Origin: Bradyrhizobium prioriisuperbiae | GTDB lineage: Bacteria > Pseudomonadota > Alphaproteobacteria > Rhizobiales > Xanthobacteraceae | Reading direction: 5' to 3' | DNA length: 64,000 nucleotides | Assembly: GCF_032397745.1 (NCBI RefSeq) | Contig: NZ_CP135921.1 | Coordinates: 3,224,001 to 3,288,000, forward strand | Part shown: positions 3,616 through 57,263 of the stretch, in pieces | How the letters are laid out: every line of letters starts with the position of its first letter | Numbering within the stretch: position 1 is the stretch's first letter | Program-made: the position numbers and the translations under genes | The notes under the pieces: model-generated | What the model saw: only the letters and a program-made list of their open reading frames with translations | What the model was told of the DNA's origin: nothing | Database searches by the model: none

Positions 3616-4188
3616 ATGATCAGGTTGTTAGCTCTCGCTTTGTTGCTGCTGCCATCGGCGGCCTTCGCCCATCCCGGCCATGACGAGTCCGGCCTGGTGG
3701 CCGGGCTGTCGCATCCCCTGACCGGGATCGACCATATCGCGGTGATGATCGCGGTCGGCCTGTGGGCCGCGCTGAAGGGTGGCCGGGCGCTGTGGGTCTG
3801 GCCGGCGGCATTCGTTGGGGTGATGCTGGTCGGTGGTGCGCTGGGCATGACCGGCGTGGCGCTGCCGTTTGTCGAACCGGGCATCCTTGCCTCGGTGGTG
3901 GTGCTCGGTCTCCTGGTGGCGCTGGCGGTGGATCTGCCGGTGTGGCTTGGCGCCGCCATTGTCGGTCTGTTTGCTCTGTTTCACGGCCATGCCCACGGCG
4001 CTGAAGTGCCGGAGGCGGCGAGTGGTTTGGCCTATATGGCCGGTTTTGCGGTGGCCACGGCAGTGCTGCATGGCGTGGGTATTGCGGTCGCACTGTCGCT
4101 GAAGTCCGCCCGCTGGCAGCCGCTGGTGCGGGTCGCCGGAGCGGCTTGCGCATTGGTCGGCGTCGGCCTCGCCATCAACGTGATCTGA
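3616..4188 (+). CDS. ureJ: HupE/UreJ family nickel permease
   Basis: Small polytopic membrane protein of 190 aa, likely importing nickel for urease. It begins with a cleavable-looking signal [18 protein letters not shown] followed by the motif HPGHDE and then [20 protein letters not shown]; the HPG and HPLTGxDH histidines are the family's metal-binding signature. About six hydrophobic helices follow, with a second His-rich spot FHGHAHGAE. It sits between ureA and ureB, 7 bp before ureB, so it is co-expressed with the enzyme it supplies. Nickel specificity is inferred from context. Confidence 0.88.
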
Positions 4189-9031: not shown

Positions 9032-9109
9032 TCTCTTCAGGCTCCGGTCGTGGTGAAATCCGCATTGCGATTTTCAGGAACGGACTGGGGCGTTTCGTGT
9101 TGTGTTGTC

Positions 9110-9232
9110 ATGAGACACATGCACCAGGCACAGCCCGATGATCGGGCCCGGGATTATGGCAATGCCTTTCTGGCGCTGACGCTGCTCGGCATCGTCATGA
9201 TGGTGTTTGGGCTGGCGCTGGCGACGGCGTAG
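9110..9232 (+). CDS. Hypothetical 40-aa single-span membrane protein
   Basis: Short frame MRHMHQAQPDDRARDYG followed by one hydrophobic segment, NAFLALTLLGIVMMVFGLA, so probably an inner-membrane micropeptide with a charged N-terminus. An upstream in-frame GTG at 9050 would extend it by 20 residues. No family is recognised. It lies between ureG and the histidine kinase. A GGAAC-N16-TGTT sequence at 9077-9101 resembles an EcfG promoter but would leave almost no leader. Coding status rests on the membrane segment only. Confidence 0.4.
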   Translation: MRHMHQAQPDDRARDYGNAFLALTLLGIVMMVFGLALATA

Positions 9233-9564
9233 CATCGGGCATCCTTTGTGGCTCCCCACCGACAGCTTTGATCGCTCCCTGAGTGAATCCGCCAGCTACT
9301 GGAAAACAGCAGTCCCGTCGCCAACCGGGTTGTCGGCCGCGGTTGGCCGGGCCGCCTTTCTTTCGACTGGCATGGAACAAAATGGCAGCTTAATCTTTGA
9401 TTTGCCTATCGCTTGCATGGAACAGGTCATTAACCCTCAAGGGGGCAATTGGGCGTATCGTGTATCGATGACTGTTCGCATTGCTGATCGCCGCATTGCC
9501 GATTGTCCACAGCGTTGGTCCGAGGCATTTGCCGTCGTCCGGCTCCCGTGGCCGGGGTAGAGCT
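9233..9564. other. Intergenic stretch before the histidine kinase gene
   Basis: No convincing gene. The sequence GCATGGAAC occurs twice, at 9370-9378 and 9415-9423. The first GGAAC is followed after 16 bases by CTTT, one base off the EcfG -10 element, so it is a weak promoter candidate at best. Confidence 0.4.
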
Positions 9565-11229
9565 GTGTTCAGGCTTGGTTTCCTCATTGGATTGATCGCG
9601 CTGATCGGAGTTCTGATCTCCGGGCTGGTCGCGTATCGCGTGTACCATCAGGAAATATCGCTCGACGATGCGGCGCTGCAGCGTTCGGTCGATATCCACG
9701 CGCGACTGGTGCAGGATCGCCTGAGCGAGCGAGAGCTGTTGACCCGCATCATTGTCGGCCTGATCCGCCGGCCGTCCCTGCTGCAGGGGAATGTCCTGGA
9801 GCCGCTGCGCTCATCGATCTATGCGTTCAAGACCGATTTTGTGGTCGCCAGCTGGGTGGCGCGGGTTCCGCCGGCGGGCCTGACGAGTGCCGAGAAACAG
9901 CTGGCCACGGCGGGTTTCTCCCGTCCCAAGATTCGCGACGCCGAAGATCAGGTTCTCAATCTTGCCTCGATCACTCAGCCGACCGACGTGCTGATGGATG
10001 TCGAGCCGCGGAATGACGAAACCTTGACCTTCCCCGGGCGAACGCTCGACCAGCATCCCGTGCTCGGCCCGTTGCTGGCCCGCGCTGCGCTGGAGGGCAA
10101 GCCACTGTGCTCGGATCCGCTGGTGTTGATGCGGACCAATGGTCCGGTCGGGGTCGTGCTGGTCGCGCCGGTAACACAGGACGGCAGCAGCAGCGTTGCC
10201 GGCTTCATCATGTTCTCCTATCGCATTGCGCCGCTGATCCTCGCCAACGAAGACACCAGCCCCTTCGATGTGGTGCTGCGTGATCCGCGCGAGCTCTCCA
10301 AGGAGCTGAAGGCCGACCCGCAGGGGATGGTGACGGCCGTGACTGCGCGGCAGGACCCCGCGACCCCGATGCTGCGGCGTATTGTCTCATTCGGCGGCAA
10401 GGATTGGGCGCTGGGCTATTACCCCAAAAACAATTCGAGGGCGCGCGGCGAAGAACTGGCGGCCATTGTGGCGATCATCGGCGTCGCGCTGACCAGCATC
10501 ATCTGCGGCCTGTTCGGCTACGTCATCTACAACAACATACGATTGAGCCGGGAGATCGAGGTCAGGATCGGCTTCGAGAATCGTCTCACCGCGGTGATCG
10601 GCGAACTCAATCATCGTGTGAAGAACATTCTTGCGGTGATTCAGTCGATCGTGACGCGCACATTGCGTCATGGCACCGACGTCGATTCCGCGCGCGAACT
10701 GCTGATCGGCCGCATTCATGCGATGTCGAACGTGGTGTCCCTGCTCAGCGACAGTCAGTGGCAGGGCGTGAAACTCAGAGGGTTGCTGGAATCCCGCGCG
10801 ATTCCCCATGCGGAACGCATCGCGCTGAGCGGCCCCGATATTGCGGTCAGTCCGCGGGCGGCGCAAAGCCTGTCGCTGCTGTTCTTTGAATTGGCCTCTC
10901 ATGCGGACGAAGGCCTGTCGCTGGTCGGCAAACACCCCAACATCTCGGCGCAATGGCATGTGATGGGCCAGGGCAAGGATGCGATTTTTGATTTTCGCTG
11001 GGAGGAGTTCAATACCAGTGCCGCGACGCGGCGTCCGGACAGCGACTTCGGTGTTATCCTGCTCGATCGTGTCGCCCCCGAAGCGCTTGGTGGAGCCTCG
11101 AAGCGGTATTTCACCGATGTGAGTTATGTCTATGAACTGACGGCGCCGATGGAGACCGTGGTCGATCAGGCGGAGCTCGACCGCACCGACCGTCTCGCAG
11201 CCCCCGTCAACACCGGCAAACGGAAATAG
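9565..11229 (+). CDS. CHASE-domain HWE-family sensor histidine kinase with degenerate ATP-binding N box
   Basis: Membrane sensor of about 554 aa from a GTG at 9565. A first membrane helix (FRLGFLIGLIALIGVLISG) is followed by a periplasmic CHASE-like domain (about residues 50-270), a second helix near 300-322 (AAIVAIIGVALTSIICGLFG) and a cytoplasmic HWE module. The H box GELNHRVKNILAVIQSI has the phospho-acceptor histidine at about residue 350. The N box, normally HELATNA, reads FELASHA with histidine near residue 446 in place of the asparagine; the later FRWEE and FGVILLDRVAP parts are recognisable. It is convergent with ecfG, so it is probably the PhyR-directed sensor of the locus. The altered N box suggests weak kinase or mainly phosphatase action. 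The exact start is uncertain. Confidence 0.85.
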   Translation: MFRLGFLIGLIALIGVLISGLVAYRVYHQEISLDDAALQRSVDIHARLVQDRLSERELLTRIIVGLIRRPSLLQGNVLEPLRSSIYAFKTDFVVASWVARVPPAGLTSAEKQLATAGFSRPKIRDAEDQVLNLASITQPTDVLMDVEPRNDETLTFPGRTLDQHPVLGPLLARAALEGKPLCSDPLVLMRTNGPVGVVLVAPVTQDGSSSVAGFIMFSYRIAPLILANEDTSPFDVVLRDPRELSKELKADPQGMVTAVTARQDPATPMLRRIVSFGGKDWALGYYPKNNSRARGEELAAIVAIIGVALTSIICGLFGYVIYNNIRLSREIEVRIGFENRLTAVIGELNHRVKNILAVIQSIVTRTLRHGTDVDSARELLIGRIHAMSNVVSLLSDSQWQGVKLRGLLESRAIPHAERIALSGPDIAVSPRAAQSLSLLFFELASHADEGLSLVGKHPNISAQWHVMGQGKDAIFDFRWEEFNTSAATRRPDSDFGVILLDRVAPEALGGASKRYFTDVSYVYELTAPMETVVDQAELDRTDRLAAPVNTGKRK

Positions 11230-11384: not shown

Positions 11385-11927
11385 TTATCTGCCACCGATC
11401 ACGGCACGGACCGTATTGTCCGGCCCGAAGTCATCGGCGCCTTCCACATAGAGCAGATTGCTCAGTTTCGAGCGCGCGCGATTGACGCGACTCTTGATGG
11501 TGCCGACCGCGCATCCGCAGATCGCCGCAGCATCTTCGTAGGAAAAGCCCGATGCCCCGACCAGGATGAGGGCCTCTTTCTGGTCTTGCGGCAGCTTTTC
11601 CAGCGCGACGCGAAATTCCTCGAATTCCAGGTGATGGCTTTGACCCGGTTGGGACTTCAGCGTCTTGGCATAGCTGCCATCGGCGTCCTCGACCTCGCGC
11701 CGGCGCTTGCGATAGTCGGAGCGAAACAGGTTTCGCAAAATCGTGAACAACCATGCCGGCATGTTCGAGCCCGGCTGGAACGATTCGATGTTCGCCAGCG
11801 CCCGCAGCAGGGTTTCCTGCACAAGGTCGTCGGCCCGGTCGCCGTTGCCGCTGAGCGAAATCGCGAATGCGCGCAAACTCGGCACGCACGCGAGCATGTC
11901 GTCACGAAGCTGATTGGTGAGGGGCAT
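11385..11927 (-). CDS. ecfG: General stress response ECF sigma factor EcfG
   Basis: ECF15-type sigma factor directing RNA polymerase to GGAAC-N16/17-CGTT promoters. The 180-aa protein has region 2 with DRADDLVQETLLRALANIESF and PAWLFTILRNLFRSDYRKRRRE, and region 4 with LPQDQKEALILVGASGFSYEDAAAICG and GTIKSRVNRARSKL. In unstressed cells it should be held by NepR, encoded immediately upstream; the nepR stop and ecfG start share one base (TAATG), and AGGAGGGA precedes the ATG. The kinase, NepR and PhyR genes around it make the assignment firm. Confidence 0.96.
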   Translation of the reverse strand: MPLTNQLRDDMLACVPSLRAFAISLSGNGDRADDLVQETLLRALANIESFQPGSNMPAWLFTILRNLFRSDYRKRRREVEDADGSYAKTLKSQPGQSHHLEFEEFRVALEKLPQDQKEALILVGASGFSYEDAAAICGCAVGTIKSRVNRARSKLSNLLYVEGADDFGPDNTVRAVIGGR

Positions 11928-12130
11928 TAGTCCCTCCTGTCGTTTTTGGTCACCAGATCTCCGGCATCGGCGGTGTCGAGTTTGCGGATCAGCTCCGCAA
12001 AACGATCGGGGACCCCCTGTCGGACGACATCATCGTACATCGCCCTAAGCTGATGCCCGATGCGGGATTGAATTTCGGCATTCAGTCCACCTGGCTTGCC
12101 GGTGGATGGCTTGCGTTTTGGATCATTCAT
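11927..12130 (-). CDS. nepR: Anti-sigma factor NepR
   Basis: Small 67-aa anti-sigma factor that sequesters EcfG until phosphorylated PhyR binds it. The core IQSRIGHQLRAMYDDVVRQG and VPDRFAELIRKLD form the two helices of the NepR family, flanked by a basic disordered N-terminus (MNDPKRKPSTGKPGG) and an acidic/basic C-terminus. It is co-transcribed with ecfG by a one-base overlap, fixing sigma:anti-sigma stoichiometry, and is divergent from phyR. Confidence 0.96.
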   Translation of the reverse strand: MNDPKRKPSTGKPGGLNAEIQSRIGHQLRAMYDDVVRQGVPDRFAELIRKLDTADAGDLVTKNDRRD

Positions 12131-12224: not shown

Positions 12225-12249
12225 AATGCGACAGACGGGATAAAGTTCC
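12225..12249 (-). promoter_or_regulatory. Candidate EcfG promoter of nepR-ecfG
   Basis: On the minus strand, GGAAC (12249-12245) is followed after 16 bases by CATT (12228-12225), one base off the EcfG consensus CGTT, about 95 bp before the nepR start. It faces away from the phyR promoter at 12259, and the two GGAAC boxes form the inverted pair GTTCC-9 bp-GGAAC. Autoregulation of this locus is known in other Alphaproteobacteria. Confidence 0.6.
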
Positions 12250-12258
12250 AGAAATCTC

Positions 12259-12283
12259 GGAACTTTCGCTGGGCTGGGACGTA
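12259..12283 (+). promoter_or_regulatory. Candidate EcfG promoter of phyR
   Basis: GGAAC at 12259-12263 is followed after 16 bases by CGTA at 12280-12283, one base off CGTT. Transcription would start near 12290, giving a leader of about 65 bases that contains the hairpin at 12299-12321. Confidence 0.6.
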
Positions 12284-12321: not shown

Positions 12322-12354
12322 TGCGCTTGAGCGAATGAAATGGATGGAGGGGGG

Positions 12355-13161
12355 ATGTCTCGTTCCCAGGTCGTTGCCGAACACTTGCCGTTGCTTCGCC
12401 GCTATGCCCGTGCCCTGTCGGGCAACCAGGCGTCAGGCGACGCCTATGTCGCCGCCATGCTGGAGGCGCTGCTGCAGGATCAGTCGCTGCTCGATGAGAA
12501 GAACGGCCCTCGCGTAGGCCTGTTTCGGCTGTTCACGCAGATATGGAATTCCGTTGCGATCAATGACGGCGCCGATGCCTCCGTGGCCTCGATCCCCTCC
12601 GAGCGGCGGTTGTCGAACATTACACCGTTGCCGCGGCAGGCTTTTCTGCTGTTGTCGCTGGAAGGCTTCTCCGAGGACGAAGTGTCGTTCATCCTTGACA
12701 CCAGCGTCGCTGAGATCCGCCAGCTGACTGACGCCGCCGGCCGCGAACTCGCTGCAGAGATTGCGACCGACGTCCTGATCATCGAGGACGAGACGTTCAT
12801 CGCGATGGATCTGGAGAGCCTGGTCAAGAATCTCGGACACAATGTGATCGGCGTGGCGCGAACCCATTCCGACGCCATCGCGCTGGCCAAGAGCCATCGG
12901 CCTGGCTTAATCTTGGCCGACATTCAGCTGGCGGATGGCAGCTCAGGCCTTGATGCGGTCAACGAGTTGTTGCGCGTTTTCGAGGTCCCCGTCGTGTTCA
13001 TCACAGCCTATCCCGAGCGCTTCCTCACCGGCGAACGGCCGGAGCCGGCGTTTTTGATCTCCAAACCGTTCCAGCCCGCCATGGTATCGGCGGTGGCGAG
13101 TCAGGCGCTGTTCTTCCAGCGCAACTCGCGCAACCGCGCGGGCAAGGTCGCCGCTTCATAA
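12355..13161 (+). CDS. phyR: General stress response anti-anti-sigma regulator PhyR
   Basis: Response regulator of 268 aa with an ECF-sigma-like output domain at the N-terminus (about 1-135: VAEHLPLLRRYARALSGNQ to LSLEGFSEDEVSFILDTSVAEIRQL) and a receiver domain at the C-terminus (about 140-260). The phospho-acceptor is D189 in LILADIQLADGSSG; the acidic pair is in VLIIEDETF, with FITAYPE and LISKPF completing the site. When phosphorylated, its sigma-like domain binds NepR and frees EcfG. I choose ATG 12355 because GGAGGGG precedes it at the right distance; ATG 12340 would overlap that site. A strong terminator follows. Confidence 0.96.
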   Translation: MSRSQVVAEHLPLLRRYARALSGNQASGDAYVAAMLEALLQDQSLLDEKNGPRVGLFRLFTQIWNSVAINDGADASVASIPSERRLSNITPLPRQAFLLLSLEGFSEDEVSFILDTSVAEIRQLTDAAGRELAAEIATDVLIIEDETFIAMDLESLVKNLGHNVIGVARTHSDAIALAKSHRPGLILADIQLADGSSGLDAVNELLRVFEVPVVFITAYPERFLTGERPEPAFLISKPFQPAMVSAVASQALFFQRNSRNRAGKVAAS

Positions 13162-13500: not shown

Positions 13501-13526
13501 GGAACCAGATCGATCCCGTCTCTGTT
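13501..13526 (+). promoter_or_regulatory. Weak EcfG-like promoter upstream of the gene at 13593
   Basis: GGAAC at 13501-13505 is followed after 17 bases by TGTT at 13523-13526, one mismatch to CGTT with the alternative spacing. It lies 67 bp before the ATG of the next gene. Confidence 0.4.
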
Positions 13527-13592: not shown

Positions 13593-14000
13593 ATGTCTCA
13601 TATTTCAACAGGTGCTTTGGGTTTGATTGCGGCGTCGCTGGCTTTCAGCGGTGTGCAGTTCGGAATGGCGTCGGACGGCGGCGTTGGCGGTGCTACCGCA
13701 CTCCGAGGAAGCGTCAGCCATGATGCCGTTTTTGTCGTGAACCGCGACGCCAAATCGGATCGCGACGCAGGTGCGGCGACCCAAGCGGGCACGGTGACTC
13801 TGTCGTTTCAGGTGCCCGGCCTGAAGGATGGTTCGGTGGCCATGCGCATGCCGACCGCGGACGCCATTCGTTTGCGTCCCGCCGTCAACAACGCCAAAGC
13901 CAGCAATACCCCGCGACGCAGGACCGTGGCTTGCGAGCCGGTGGTGAGTGTCCTGACCGACGTTGCGAAGCACCTTGAGCCGGGACGCTGCATCACCTGA
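13593..14000 (+). CDS. Hypothetical exported protein, 135 aa
   Basis: The N-terminus MSHISTGALGLIAASLAFSG followed by VQFGMASDGG looks like a signal peptide, so the product is probably periplasmic. The rest is basic and lacks a recognised domain: it contains LSFQVPGLKDGSVAMRMP and ends with two cysteines (TVACEPVVSVL and LEPGRCIT), which could form one disulfide. I chose ATG 13593 for the signal peptide; the longer in-frame start at 13437 lies in the T-tract region. A terminator follows. Position and a weak EcfG-like promoter suggest stress expression. Confidence 0.6.
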   Translation: MSHISTGALGLIAASLAFSGVQFGMASDGGVGGATALRGSVSHDAVFVVNRDAKSDRDAGAATQAGTVTLSFQVPGLKDGSVAMRMPTADAIRLRPAVNNAKASNTPRRRTVACEPVVSVLTDVAKHLEPGRCIT

Positions 14001-14153: not shown

Positions 14154-14648
14154 CTACTCCGCAGGATCTTCTTCGGGCGCTTTTCGCTGCGCCATCAGGC
14201 CGAACGCAATGCCGCCGACGGCCAGCAAAGGCAACAAGCGCTTCACTCCCACGGCCCGGACGATCTGAAGCCCTGCCGCCATCATCATGGGATCGCTCAT
14301 CACGGTGGCGAAAGCTGATTTGGTATTGGCTTTCGCGGCTGCCTCGACGGCTCGCCGCGTGCGCCGGCGTCGATACAGGTAGATGCCGGTCACGATCAGT
14401 GTGACCACGAAGAAAAATGCGGCGCCGGACAGGCAGGCCGGGACGATACCGTATTGCTGCAGCACATATGAGAACGCCGCCGCGCACAGGAATGTGAGAG
14501 TAATGAATAAGGCAATCGAAATGGCCGCGATCAGCGCTGTCATGCGCAATGCGACGCCGGTCGAAACCTTGAGATCATCGATAAAGTTCTGCAGCATCAA
14601 AATCGCCTGTTGTTGAAAGACTGCGTCACGCAAACTGCGATCCAGCAA
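14154..14648 (-). CDS. Putative membrane protein with two N-terminal helices, general stress island
   Basis: Protein of up to 164 aa with two membrane helices (ALIAAISIALFITLTFLCAA and AAFFFVVTLIVTGIYLY), a short basic linker RRRRTRR, and a third hydrophobic stretch LLPLLAVGGIAFGLM near the end. The pattern resembles the phage-holin-like/DUF1469 family partners of DUF883 proteins, but I do not assign it firmly. Translation may start at 14648 or at the internal ATG at 14597. It begins 57 bp after the DUF883-like gene with no terminator between, so both should be read from the EcfG promoter at 15117-15141. Confidence 0.7.
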   Translation of the reverse strand: MLDRSLRDAVFQQQAILMLQNFIDDLKVSTGVALRMTALIAAISIALFITLTFLCAAAFSYVLQQYGIVPACLSGAAFFFVVTLIVTGIYLYRRRRTRRAVEAAAKANTKSAFATVMSDPMMMAAGLQIVRAVGVKRLLPLLAVGGIAFGLMAQRKAPEEDPAE

Positions 14649-14705: not shown

Positions 14706-15068
14706 TCAGCGGCGCCACGTCACGCCGATCAGAAAACCGAGGCCGATCGCAAGACCGACCGCAGCCAGCGGCCGCTGCTGCACGGCATCTTCCAGGCTCT
14801 CGCTCAGCGTTGCTGCCGCGTCCTGGGCCGCATCGAATGCGGCACTGCCTTGCTCCGAGAGGTCGGACACGATGCCGTCGACGCTGGAGCGGGCCTGCTT
14901 GTAGCCGCGCCGCGCCTGCTTTTGCGCTGTGCCGGCCAGGCCGTTGAGTGCATCGGTAATCTGCTCCGCGAGATTGGAGATGTCGCTTTTCACGGCGTCC
15001 ACATCCTTCTGCAAACGGTCATAGCTGGCTTTATCGGTCATCGCGGCTTCACCCTCATCGCTCGACAT
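14706..15068 (-). CDS. DUF883 (ElaB/YqjD)-like membrane-anchored protein
   Basis: The 120-aa protein has a long amphipathic, coiled-coil-prone N-terminal part (YDRLQKDVDAVKSDISNLA and further helices rich in Ala, Gln and Asp) and one C-terminal membrane anchor RPLAAVGLAIGLGFLIG ending WRR, the hallmark of the ElaB/YqjD/DUF883 family, which in E. coli includes a ribosome-binding stationary-phase protein. A second in-frame ATG lies at residue 10. An exact EcfG promoter lies 48 bp upstream of the start, within the 3' end of the AI-2E gene. Confidence 0.82.
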   Translation of the reverse strand: MSSDEGEAAMTDKASYDRLQKDVDAVKSDISNLAEQITDALNGLAGTAQKQARRGYKQARSSVDGIVSDLSEQGSAAFDAAQDAAATLSESLEDAVQQRPLAAVGLAIGLGFLIGVTWRR

Positions 15069-15116: not shown

Positions 15117-15141
15117 AACGCGCCGTGGCACTCATGGTTCC
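15117..15141 (-). promoter_or_regulatory. EcfG promoter of the DUF883-like operon (exact consensus)
   Basis: On the minus strand, GGAAC (15141-15137), 16 bases, CGTT (15120-15117): an exact match to the EcfG consensus, 48 bp before the ATG at 15068. It overlaps the last codons of the upstream AI-2E gene, allowing the small genes to be induced separately. Confidence 0.8.
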
Positions 15142-16277
15142 CGTGCGGGGACGAGATGCTCCTTGAGGATCAGCGCGACAATCAGCAGCGGTGAAGCCAG
15201 AAATGCACCCATCGGCCCCCACAGCCAGGTCCAGAATGCGAACGCGATGAAGACGGCGAGTGCGTTCAGCTCCAGGCGCCGGCCGATGATGGTTGGCGTG
15301 ATGAAATGGCCTTCGAGAAATGTCACGCCTGCGAACAGGATCGGGGCAATCAAGCCGGTGGCCAGTGTCGACGAATTGACCACGCCGATCACCGTCAGCA
15401 CGACGAACATGACGACGGGACCGATGATTGGGACGTAGTTCAGGGTTGCGGCAAGGGCGCCGAGGCCGGCGGGATTCGGCATTCCGGTGACCGAGCAGAT
15501 CAGGCCGGTTGCGATGCCGACACCCATATTGATCATGGTTACGATCAGCAGGTAGCTGCCCAGATTCTGTTCGATGGCATTGAGGATGCGCAACGTCCGC
15601 AGCCGGGTTTCGCGCGCCGCGAAGTTCATGATCAGCGAGCGCCGCAACTCGGGCCAACTGGCGACGAACAGAATCAAGGTGACGAAGAACAGCAGCAGCT
15701 CGGTCAGGGTCGGAGACAGGAATTCGAGCGTGGGCTGCACCCATTCGATCTTGGGCAACGATAGCGCGGCTGTCGACGGTTCGCTGCCGAACATGGCCTG
15801 CAGCTGATGCCACAGCGCGAGCGGCCGGTCGAAGACGTGCAGCTTCTCCTTGAAGTGCGCGCCGAGTTCGGGAAGCTGGGATGACCACTCCAGCATCGGC
15901 GCTGATATCAGCGCGATGATCAGGGCGATGATGGCGCACATGGTGGCGATCATCAGGGCCGCCGACGCCGCCCGCGGAATGCGATAGCGCTCGAGAAAGC
16001 CGATGCCGGCCGAAAGCATGGTGCCGATCACGAACGCGGTGACGATCGGCATGAACAGCGTACGGGCGACATAGAGCACGGTGATCACGGCGATCGCCAG
16101 CAGGCCGACCAGCGTGACGGCGACGACTTCCGCGCGTCGAATGAGCGGAGGCTGCTCGTCGAGGCTCTCGTGCAGCGGTGTGCCGGTCGGCCGGCTGGCG
16201 GGACGGGACGACGATGGGGGATCGGTCAGTTCTGCGCGCGATATGCCGATAGGATCAGACACCATAGGATCAGACAT
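15132..16277 (-). CDS. AI-2E family (PerM/YdiK-type) membrane permease
   Basis: Polytopic protein of 381 aa with the AI-2E/UPF0118 pattern: two N-terminal helices (VAVTLVGLLAIAVITVLYV, MPIVTAFVIGTMLSAGIGF), a large soluble loop, then a C-terminal helix bundle containing LNYVPIIGPVVMFVVLTVIG, FLEGHFITPTIIGRRLELNA and FWTWLWGPMGAFLASPLL. Family members export small molecules or ions; the autoinducer-2 name is historical. I use ATG 16277, 4 bp after the DUF3309 stop; a TTG at 16310 would overlap that gene. It is probably read from the EcfG promoter at 16518-16542. Confidence 0.88.
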   Translation of the reverse strand: MSDPMVSDPIGISRAELTDPPSSSRPASRPTGTPLHESLDEQPPLIRRAEVVAVTLVGLLAIAVITVLYVARTLFMPIVTAFVIGTMLSAGIGFLERYRIPRAASAALMIATMCAIIALIIALISAPMLEWSSQLPELGAHFKEKLHVFDRPLALWHQLQAMFGSEPSTAALSLPKIEWVQPTLEFLSPTLTELLLFFVTLILFVASWPELRRSLIMNFAARETRLRTLRILNAIEQNLGSYLLIVTMINMGVGIATGLICSVTGMPNPAGLGALAATLNYVPIIGPVVMFVVLTVIGVVNSSTLATGLIAPILFAGVTFLEGHFITPTIIGRRLELNALAVFIAFAFWTWLWGPMGAFLASPLLIVALILKEHLVPAREP

Positions 16278-16281
16278 GGGA

Positions 16282-16440
16282 TCAGAGACGCCCGAGCAGC
16301 AGCAGGACAAGGACGATGATCAGCACCGTGCCGACAATGCCAGAGGGGCCATAGCCCCATGAGTTGCTGTAGCCCCAACGGGGGATAACCCCGAGCAGGA
16401 TCAGAACCAGGAGGATGATCAGGATGGTGCCGAGCGGCAT
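16282..16440 (-). CDS. DUF3309 small hydrophobic protein
   Basis: 52-aa protein of two hydrophobic helices (LGTILIILLVLILLGVIP and GIVGTVLIIVLVLLLLG) joined by the Tyr/Trp/Ser turn RWGYSNSWGYGPS, which is the DUF3309 signature. Such proteins are common in stress-induced operons of rhizobia. AAGGAG precedes the ATG. It is the first gene after an exact EcfG promoter 78 bp upstream and is followed within 4 bp by the AI-2E permease gene. Confidence 0.88.
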   Translation of the reverse strand: MPLGTILIILLVLILLGVIPRWGYSNSWGYGPSGIVGTVLIIVLVLLLLGRL

Positions 16441-16517
16441 GGCCGGACTCCTTGCGAAGGATTGCCCGGACGCCGCGGATTGCTGATGGACAGTCCTCGA
16501 CCCCGGCTTTGGGGCGT

Positions 16518-16542
16518 AACGGACCGGCGTCATCAAGGTTCC
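16518..16542 (-). promoter_or_regulatory. EcfG promoter of the DUF3309/AI-2E operon (exact consensus)
   Basis: On the minus strand, GGAAC (16542-16538), 16 bases, CGTT (16521-16518); exact consensus, 78 bp upstream of the DUF3309 start. It is divergent from the exact EcfG promoter at 16592. Confidence 0.82.
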
Positions 16543-16591
16543 CCGTCGCGGGGACGTGAACGGTGTTCCCTTTTTGGGCAACACCGGCGGT

Positions 16592-16616
16592 GGAACCGAA
16601 TCGCGCTTGCCTCGTT
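16592..16616 (+). promoter_or_regulatory. EcfG promoter of the L,D-transpeptidase gene (exact consensus)
   Basis: GGAAC at 16592-16596, 16 bases, CGTT at 16613-16616; exact consensus, 58 bp upstream of ATG 16675. Confidence 0.82.
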
Positions 16617-16674: not shown

Positions 16675-17466
16675 ATGACACCATCGATTTGCCGGCGCAC
16701 TGACGTGCGGCGCGTGTCCGGAGCAGTCGCCGTAATCCTCGCTACCGCTTTCTTGTCCACCGGCGCCTCCGCGCAGGCGCTTGGATATGCTAACGATCCA
16801 CGGAGCCAAGGCTTTTGGACCGACGGTGGCCTGCCATCGGCGCAACAGCCGATGACCGATGATAATGGCAGCGATGCTTACGTAGTGCCGCAGCGGCTGC
16901 AGCGCCAAACCGTCAGCTACGCCACGCACGAGGCGGCCGGCACCATCGTCATCGATACCGCGAATACCGTTCTCTACTACGTGCTCGGCAACAACCGCGC
17001 GATCCGCTACGGCGTTGGTGTCGGCCGCGAAGGCTTCACCTGGTCGGGCACCCAAAACATCACCCGCAAGGCCGAGTGGCCGGACTGGCATCCGCCGACG
17101 GAGATGATCGCCCGCCAGCCCTATCTGCCGCGCTTCATGGCCGGTGGTCCCGGAAATCCGCTCGGGGCCCGCGCCATGTACTTGGGCTCCAGCGTATACC
17201 GCATCCATGGCACCAACGATCCGTCGACCATCGGCAAGTTCGTGTCCAGCGGCTGCATCCGGCTGACCAATCCAGATGTGGAAGATCTGTTCAGCCGGGT
17301 CAATGTCGGGACCCGGGTGGTGGTGCTGCCCAAGAGTGGTGCACCGCGGTTTGAGGCCCACGCTACCGTTCCTGCGAGGGCAGCTGCGATGGTCCCCGCA
17401 CAGCCGATGCCGGTCCGAACCGCGTTTCAGCGCCAGGTGAACCAGACCACCGCTGGATTGTACTAA
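16675..17466 (+). CDS. L,D-transpeptidase, YkuD family, exported
   Basis: Periplasmic enzyme of 263 aa that cross-links peptidoglycan or attaches proteins to it. A signal peptide (VSGAVAVILATAFLSTGASAQA) is followed by a YkuD domain from about residue 85 to 225; the catalytic motif is RIHGTND then SSGCIRL, with the nucleophile cysteine in SSGCIRL. ATG 16675 follows GAGGG. The basic C-terminal tail after VVVLPKSG is low in complexity. Transcription from an exact EcfG promoter ties wall remodelling to the general stress response. Confidence 0.92.
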   Translation: MTPSICRRTDVRRVSGAVAVILATAFLSTGASAQALGYANDPRSQGFWTDGGLPSAQQPMTDDNGSDAYVVPQRLQRQTVSYATHEAAGTIVIDTANTVLYYVLGNNRAIRYGVGVGREGFTWSGTQNITRKAEWPDWHPPTEMIARQPYLPRFMAGGPGNPLGARAMYLGSSVYRIHGTNDPSTIGKFVSSGCIRLTNPDVEDLFSRVNVGTRVVVLPKSGAPRFEAHATVPARAAAMVPAQPMPVRTAFQRQVNQTTAGLY

Positions 17467-17491: not shown

Positions 17492-18145
17492 ATGATGCGC
17501 GTGTCGAGATCCCGGATCACTGTCGGATTGGCACTGGCCCTGACGCTGTGGCTGGCGGGGACCGGCGTCTCGACGTCGGCCCAGGCTCAGGATTTCTTCT
17601 CAGCCTTGTTCGGTGGTGGAGCTCCGGCGCCCCGGCCTTTTGCGCTTCCGTTCGGCAGCCCGTTTGACGAGGCCCGGCCGGCGCCCGCTCCGCGACCAAG
17701 CTCAGGTGGCGGCGGTGGCCGCACGGCTTACTGCGTCCGCACTTGCGATGGACGATATTTCCCGGCCCCGGCGACCGAGGGCCAAAGCCGCGCCTCGGTG
17801 TGCAATAGCTTCTGCCCCGCCAGCGAGACCAAGGTGTTTTACGGCGGCTCCATCGACAACGCATCGACCGAGAGCGGCAAGTCATACTCCGACCTGCCCA
17901 ATGCCTTCCGCTATCGCAACGAACTGGTTGCCGGCTGCACCTGCAACGGCAAGGATTCGGTTGGGCTTGCCGCGATCAAGATCGATGACGATCGCACCCT
18001 GCGCAAAGGCGATATCGTCGCCGGCCCGAGCGGGCTGGTGGTGGCTTCGGGCCGCCCCGACAAACGCACCGCCGTGAACTTCACGCCGGTCTCGCCGTCT
18101 GTCCGCGCCAAGTTCGAGCGGGTGCCTGTGGTTGCCAACGAGTGA
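17492..18145 (+). CDS. DUF2865 exported protein, copy A
   Basis: Secreted 217-aa protein with signal peptide VGLALALTLWLAGTGVSTSAQA and then DFFSALFGGG. The DUF2865 core holds paired cysteines: YCVRTCDGRYFP, VCNSFCPASETKVFYGGSID, NAFRYRNELVAGCTCNG, then KGDIVAGPSGLVVASG. Six cysteines suggest three disulfides. Function is unknown; the family is common in Bradyrhizobium and Rhodopseudomonas. A second full copy lies at 23035, and the last codons of a third, ending VRAKFERVPVVATE, are at 20221. A terminator follows directly. Confidence 0.85.
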   Translation: MMRVSRSRITVGLALALTLWLAGTGVSTSAQAQDFFSALFGGGAPAPRPFALPFGSPFDEARPAPAPRPSSGGGGGRTAYCVRTCDGRYFPAPATEGQSRASVCNSFCPASETKVFYGGSIDNASTESGKSYSDLPNAFRYRNELVAGCTCNGKDSVGLAAIKIDDDRTLRKGDIVAGPSGLVVASGRPDKRTAVNFTPVSPSVRAKFERVPVVANE

Positions 18146-56795: not shown

Positions 56796-56820
56796 GGAAC
56801 CTAAAGTGCCCCGGTTCGTT
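56796..56820 (+). promoter_or_regulatory. EcfG promoter of the Gly/Tyr-rich protein gene (exact consensus)
   Basis: GGAAC at 56796-56800, 16 bases, CGTT at 56817-56820; exact consensus, 47 bp before ATG 56868. It is 39 kb from the stress island, so the regulon extends across the window. Confidence 0.82.
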
Positions 56821-56867
56821 TTCTCAGGTCTGACCATTGGGTCAGGGGGCATTTGAGGAGTGCTGAA

Positions 56868-57263
56868 ATGATGCGTCGAGGTCTTTCTTTCACCGCCCGC
56901 GGTGTTGCGCTCGCGACAGTCGCCGCGCTGGCGCTGACGATGTTCGAGCCCGTGCCGGTTTTGGCGCGTGATGCCGGCCCGGCTCCGGCAACGGCCTCGG
57001 CTGGCGTCGTTGCGGCCAGCGGTGCGACCGATTTCAGCGCGGCACGCCGCCGCTATCGCCGCGGTGGCGGCAACAATGCCGCTGCGATTGCCGCGTTCGG
57101 TGCGTTCGCCGGGATCATCGGCGGCGCGATCGCCGAGTCCCAGCGCCGGGATTATTATCGGGAACGCTACTATGATGGTGGTCCCGGCTATTACGGTCGG
57201 GGTTATGGCTACGGTGGTCCGGGTTATTATGGCGGCGGGCCGCGCTATTACGGTGGCTGGTAA
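56868..57263 (+). CDS. Small secreted Gly/Tyr-rich protein under EcfG-type promoter
   Basis: About 131 aa, ATG 56868 with GAGGAG 7 bp before it. Signal peptide GVALATVAALALTMFEPVPVLA, a low-complexity linker, a basic patch ARRRYRRGG, one hydrophobic helix NNAAAIAAFGAFAGIIGGAI and a C-terminal tail of Gly-Tyr-Tyr repeats (YYGRGYGYGGPGYYGGG). Similar glycine-zipper/GY-rich proteins occur at the cell surface of rhizobia; function unknown. Confidence 0.8.
   Translation: MMRRGLSFTARGVALATVAALALTMFEPVPVLARDAGPAPATASAGVVAASGATDFSAARRRYRRGGGNNAAAIAAFGAFAGIIGGAIAESQRRDYYRERYYDGGPGYYGRGYGYGGPGYYGGGPRYYGGW

Follow-up and report, generated by a model that had tools for sequence, protein, structure and literature searches.

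A predicted autoregulated EcfG promoter island at a phyR–nepR–ecfG locus, with EcfG-type sites crowded near phyR in many genomes of the order

The window, i.e., the whole stretch of 64,000 nucleotides that was analysed, comprises bases 3224001-3288000 of a single-contig genome of 9.08 Mb and carries a PhyR–NepR–EcfG locus whose closest named counterpart, judged by PhyR, is that of Bradyrhizobium sp. U87765 (92% identity). The ECF sigma factor gene ecfG (11385..11927, minus strand) encodes the Pfam sigma-70 r2 and r4_2 domains, and its product scored 376 bits against NCBIfam NF009192 (cut-off 307). The anti-sigma factor gene nepR (11927..12130, minus) lies upstream of ecfG in the same orientation, overlapping its start by 1 base. 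NepR matched the Pfam NepR model (2.4e-16) above that model's own cut-off and the solved NepR 3t0y_B with an E value of 1e-4, whereas the NCBIfam NepR model gave 34 bits, under its 100-bit cut-off. Divergent from both genes is phyR (12340..13161, plus), the product of which has the PhyR domain architecture of a sigma-like domain and a receiver, with Asp194 in ADIQLADG, and was assigned to the NCBIfam PhyR family with 364 bits (cut-off 240), its best solved relative being 4g97_A (2.8e-84). Beside these genes lies an HWE-family sensor histidine kinase with a CHASE domain (9481..11229, plus; Pfam PF07536 and PF03924; start codon uncertain), which matches HWE_HK, carries the HRxxN motif as HRVKN at residue 378 and is the probable kinase for PhyR. 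The regulators are thus those that an earlier sequence-only reading had proposed.

Three exact GGAAC-N16-CGTT sites lie near these regulators at the coordinates, on the strands and with the 16-base spacers given in that reading, matching the boxes (GGAAC, CGTT) and the 16-17 base spacer of EcfG-type (ECF15) promoters. The first (15117..15141, minus) precedes a DUF883-like glycine-zipper protein (14706..15068, minus; Pfam PF19029, 28.8 bits, cut-off 27), and the second (16518..16542, minus) precedes a DUF3309 small membrane protein (16282..16440, minus; Pfam PF11752, 1.2e-21), behind which an AI-2E family transporter (15132..16277, minus; Pfam PF01594; ATG at 16277 taken as the start) is the second gene. 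The third (16592..16616, plus) precedes an L,D-transpeptidase (16675..17466, plus; Pfam YkuD, 1e-24, with solved relatives), whose SGCIRL at residues 192-197 fits SGCxRx, the motif of this family (YkuD). The −10 boxes lie 48, 77 and 58 nt before the start codons of the DUF883, DUF3309 and L,D-transpeptidase genes, respectively, in agreement with the 48-78 bp reported before. A small membrane protein (assigned by eye; 14154..14597, minus; without Pfam match), which lacks an exact site in all 27 orthologues, is probably the second gene behind the DUF883 promoter, being on the same strand after a 108 bp gap, and a DUF2865 protein (17492..18145, plus) is possibly co-transcribed with the transpeptidase, given the 25 bp gap. 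The term envelope-stress targets, used earlier for this gene set, overreaches, as a clear envelope role is established only for the L,D-transpeptidase, through its family; the grouping of the regulators and their predicted targets into one island was retained. The target list for B. japonicum by Gourion et al. in 2009 may include some of the island genes. A fourth exact GGAAC-N16-CGTT site (56796..56820, plus) lies outside the island; 32 nt separate it from a downstream small ORF (56853-57263) that is rich in Gly and Tyr and has no Pfam match.

Two further predicted promoters, absent from the sequence-only reading and with non-consensus −10 boxes, stand back to back before the regulators, i.e., GGAAC-N16-CGTA before phyR (12259..12283, plus) and GGAAC-N16-CATT before nepR–ecfG (12225..12249, minus), each one base off the consensus in the −10 box. 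They were the best and second matches of the window to a matrix built from relatives' sites with the window excluded, a lead that is partly built in because the matrix was partly trained on the phyR and nepR sites of relatives. The site at 56796 and those of DUF883 and the transpeptidase followed in that order, and the DUF3309 site ranked eighth (10.9). At a score of at least 15, the window contained 5 matches, where simulated sequence gave 0.5 and the reversed window gave 2.

Conservation of the sites was analysed in 80 phyR loci from related genomes, which are mostly Bradyrhizobium and not independent, and some of which end early. Orthologues were found by tblastn, those with an alignment starting beyond residue 41 or with the upstream region cut were dropped, and some 250 bp surrounding every start were scanned for the best GGAAC-N16/17-CGTT match. 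This left 25 of 26 orthologues for DUF883, 17 of 18 for the transpeptidase, 16 of 25 for AI-2E, 44 of 45 for UreG, 48 of 53 for the histidine kinase, 51 of 61 for the small protein at 13593, 27 of 28 for a holin-like protein, 14 of 16 for DUF2865, 3 of 9 for an MCP, 79 of 80 for PhyR and 79 of 79 for both NepR and EcfG. DUF883, which is present in only 26 of the 80 loci, had an exact site in all 25 orthologues examined (24 with N16, one with N17), the 26th (L053) lying at the end of its stretch. The transpeptidase had one in 15 of 17 (10 with N16, 5 with N17), the other two being one mismatch away. Exact sites were absent before the control genes (UreG 0/44, ecfG 0/79, holin-like 0/27, DUF2865 0/14), and elsewhere they numbered 0/3 for the MCP, 1/48 for the histidine kinase, 1/79 for phyR, 0/79 for nepR and 3/51 for the small protein at 13593. 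Two control motifs gave no exact match before any gene, one of them giving one-mismatch matches before ecfG in 14/79, and shuffling every DUF883 and transpeptidase region 20 times produced no exact site. Read by eye, the spacers vary among the relatives and the boxes stay. The conservation before DUF883 and the transpeptidase, set against the control genes, makes it very probable that these sites are sigma-EcfG promoters of one autoregulated island. DUF3309 was found in 1 of the 80 loci, so the AI-2E start was used for its promoter, and an exact site was seen in only 8 of the 16 AI-2E orthologues examined; with its low matrix score, this site is the weakest of the three candidates.

The −35 box of the site at 15117 overlaps the last AI-2E codons, and the AI-2E stop codon falls inside the spacer. 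Such an overlap with the end of AI-2E occurred in none of 23 cases in relatives, and therefore coding does not explain the conservation of the DUF883 site. Within the genome, 10 other transpeptidase-like matches were examined, 8 of them with orientation checked, and none is preceded by an exact site within 450 bp. In both other genomes of the genus, an exact N17 site lies upstream of the transpeptidase, some 210 nt from the aligned start in one (L112 of G001) and about 75 nt in the other (L218 of G002). Neither genome has a DUF883 match, which counts against the island reading. A search for DUF883 homologues in 30 genomes yielded 15 matches in 12 genomes, its own included; 4 of the 14 non-self matches (L274, L276, L277 and L278) have an exact N16/17 site at most 200 bp upstream, and these are distant homologues (25-35% identity) that were not counted as orthologues. 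Among the 80 loci, exact-site small genes were also observed downstream of phyR, which by eye are ribbon-helix-helix-like in L047, L059 and L070 and CsbD-like in L032 and L085.

Two weaker sites, each with one mismatch, are tentative promoters. GGAAC-N16-CTTT (9374..9398, plus) lies 82 nt before the histidine kinase ORF, and a site within one mismatch was present in 17/48 orthologues, compared with about 3% of shuffles and 2/48 for the reversed motif. GGAAC-N17-TGTT (13501..13526, plus) lies before a small exported protein (13593..14000, plus; signal-like N-terminus by eye; without Pfam or NCBIfam match), which is conserved in 61 of the 80 phyR loci and has a site within one mismatch in 32/51 orthologues, mostly AGAAC-N17-CGTT. 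For these two genes, about 3-5% of shuffles contained such a site. They remain tentative because conserved one-mismatch matches also arise without promoter meaning. A GGAAC-N16-TGTT sequence was also noted at 9077-9101, just past ureG and within a 60-aa ORF (9050-9232) with a membrane-like segment; the relative L031 has an exact site directly after its ureG (4125-4149). Searching 8-23 kb against Rfam for a stress RNA yielded six matches, each under its gathering score.

The sequence-only reading had argued from base frequencies that three such sites within 1.5 kb are unlikely by chance. The whole-genome scan proposed with it was run with the exact pattern, the matrix being run on the window, and gave 83 N16 matches vs. 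139 for the reversed pattern, and 129 vs. 208 when N17 was included, i.e., no excess. Among the 83 exact N16 sites, 39 fall inside called genes and 44 upstream of or between genes according to a crude caller, which chose the wrong frame at the window's sites at 16518 and 16592, two of the 39 in-gene sites. These contexts cover all 83 N16 sites and part of the 46 N17 sites, and in the same stretches 8 of 12 reversed-pattern matches are coding. The argument from base frequencies is thus weak alone because exact matches are common inside genes, and conservation and each genome's own site density took its place here. However, the clustering itself is unusual. In 20,000 random placements of the 83 sites, a trio within 1.5 kb arose somewhere in the genome in 0.68%, and a trio in the 5 kb downstream of phyR in none (Poisson 1.5e-5). 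The window holds 4 N16 or N17 matches, vs. a mean of 0.67 in dinucleotide shuffles, 3 of 100 of which reached 4. Among 20-kb stretches of the genome, the island's 3 sites are equalled once more, at 4.86 Mb.

The crowding of sites near phyR extends beyond this genome. In the 80 loci, the density of exact N16 sites is 100-148 per Mb in the zone 2 to 9 kb downstream of phyR and 0-13 per Mb on the upstream side (0.5 to 9 kb); that of five control patterns, N12 not among them, averages 3-7 per Mb downstream. By spacer, the whole loci contain 72 matches for N16, 34 for N12, 19 for N17, 15 each for N10 and N13, 2-12 for the others tested and 11 for the reversed pattern; the frequent GGAAC-N12-CGTT, with its 34 matches in loci L031-L110, weighs against the island reading. 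A wider sample comprised 39 usable genomes (24 families) of the order, Hyphomicrobiales (Rhizobiales) as inferred from the named relatives, and 20 genomes of the class, with each genome's own site density as the reference and about 700 bp before phyR, nepR and ecfG left out of the count. For the order, 38 of 75 non-own matching genomes were taken plus two of the same genus, G001 being skipped because 19 kb separate its phyR from the transpeptidase and put it beyond the stretch; for the class, 20 of 28 were taken, the 8 omitted having mostly a match near a contig end or on a small contig. The order genomes have 98 exact sites at distances of up to about 10 kb from phyR (7.0 expected), with at least one site in 32 of the 39 genomes (6.4 expected), at least three in 17 (0.04 expected) and none in 7. 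In the class, 17 sites were counted (3.1 expected), seven of them in one genome, with at least one in 9 of 20 genomes (2.8 expected) and none in 11. Poisson values for these excesses assume independence and are too small. Orthologue conservation, the window-free matrix and this excess near phyR in the 39 order genomes strongly support the EcfG-type promoters named in the sequence-only reading.

What follows is inferred for this organism as regards transcription, the extent of the operons and the pairing of the kinase. Stress would activate HRxxN kinases such as the neighbouring one, and phosphorylated PhyR would capture NepR, freeing EcfG. RNA polymerase with EcfG would then transcribe nepR–ecfG and phyR from the two back-to-back promoters, and also DUF883 (with the membrane protein), DUF3309–AI-2E and the L,D-transpeptidase (with DUF2865) from the exact promoters; the kinase and the small exported protein may be included, as the weaker sites suggest. 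Such an autoregulated general-stress-response island, as one case of a wider tendency in the order, is highly likely. EcfG-type sites tend to lie close to phyR across the order with different genes behind them. A crude rule picked 97 ORFs behind the order sites, probably including some that are not real genes. After removal of one member of an overlapping pair, the 96 scanned include PRC-barrel 9, DUF883_C 9, HWE kinase 8, CsbD 5, DUF1328 5, ferritin-like 4, Crp-like 4, AI-2E 2 and mechanosensitive channel 2. The HWE kinases among them mean that some of the 98 sites serve signalling genes and not effectors.

For the order as a whole, we lean towards the reading that the phyR neighbourhood is a kept address for general-stress genes, where the density of EcfG-type promoters within about 10 kb is roughly 14-fold that of the genomes themselves, and the genes that follow them change within a recurring set (PRC-barrel, DUF883, CsbD, DUF1328, ferritin-like, DUF3309, AI-2E and HWE kinases). 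This reading would also include Bradyrhizobium-like regulator promoters with sub-consensus −10 boxes (CGTA for phyR, CATT for nepR), as opposed to the full CGTT for DUF883 and the transpeptidase, so that the feedback would be set weaker than the output. Alternatively, the gene order could be merely inherited, the targets having been near phyR in an ancestor and kept there without functional meaning. The recurrence of the same gene block within the family fits this account, which is possible but doubtful, as the density near phyR stays high across the order though the genes differ. It is improbable that the sites are real promoters used chiefly by a different ECF sigma factor whose −35 box is similar. 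The genome has eleven ECF-like matches besides EcfG, and S. meliloti RpoE6 overlaps RpoE2 targets (PMC6180224), yet the motif is the published EcfG motif (PMC3892343, PMC7083833), the sites surround ecfG, and EcfG shares no more than 39% identity with any other ECF protein of the genome. Chance matches that fall upstream of genes are very improbable, common as exact matches are in the genome and frequent within its genes, given the clustering and given that the same genes in relatives keep the sites while the spacers differ.

Returning to the preferred reading of an autoregulated island, its parts are ordinary, and it is a further example of a known regulatory system. The motif, autoregulation and locus layout have been published (PMC3892343, PMC7083833, PMC8103513, PMC6599016, PMC4814048, PMC3616915, PMC6180224, PMC8092242 and PMC5869019), and the partner switch with autoregulation is known from other Alphaproteobacteria, as reviewed in PMC8103513. 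For B. diazoefficiens 110spc4, a strain lacking ecfG has been reported (PMC8092242). Like the locus described there, the present one has divergent phyR and nepR–ecfG, EcfG-type promoters and an HRxxN kinase nearby; unlike it, as far as the account covers this, the window has further exact-site genes within 5 kb, and its regulators have the −10 boxes CGTA and CATT, not CGTT. The Rhizobium etli EcfG1 regulon (PMC3892343) and the Sphingopyxis granuli GSR regulon (PMC7083833) share GGAAC-N16-CGTT, autoregulation and a flexible −10 box with the island; target position relative to phyR is not treated in the parts of these accounts that were covered, and for R. etli one target, the ncRNA ReC64, is placed downstream of the kinase gene tcrY (PMC3892343). 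The Sinorhizobium meliloti RpoE2 regulon (PMC3616915, PMC6180224) likewise has a measured target near the regulators: SMc01508-SMc01509 are listed as RpoE2-responsive, have a GAAAC...CGTT-type sequence and, judged by tag numbers, lie close to SMc01504-SMc01505 (rsiB1, rsiA1). However, these are different genes from those of the window, and crowding is not discussed in the covered parts of these two papers. Our literature search found no statement that EcfG targets cluster around phyR, with few papers covered in full, so that its absence is unproven.

What this analysis adds is a measurement of how EcfG-type sites crowd around phyR in the order, together with the difference in −10 boxes between regulators and effectors. 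In the relatives, GGAAC-N16-CGTA precedes phyR in 58 of 80 loci and CGTT in 1, with no −10 box within one mismatch in 18, and GGAAC-N16-CATT precedes nepR in 46 of 79 and GGTT in 7, with none within one mismatch in 26. Of 39 order loci, 28 have an exact CGTT site within 500 bp before phyR, and the sub-consensus boxes are therefore a feature of the window's lineage. In S. granuli, replacing CGTT by CATT or TGTT in a single promoter reduced in vitro transcription, the section in question making no mention of CGTA (PMC7083833). The feedback loop may thus be weaker than the output, and as the regulator/effector difference is conserved, the strength of the loop could be tested by single-base promoter changes in a soil bacterium that is harmless. 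If the crowding is real and selected, the position of a gene may serve as a simple guide to new general-stress genes among members of the order, and it raises the question of why targets of a diffusible sigma factor would sit near its gene. Among five genomes with full site lists, the phyR stretch has the highest or joint highest count in G000, G158 and G166, ties with two others in G258 and has no site in G227. In G158, three exact EcfG sites (C1 820516-827591) were also observed beside a second, divergent PhyR-like match (C1:819683-820453, 36% identity).
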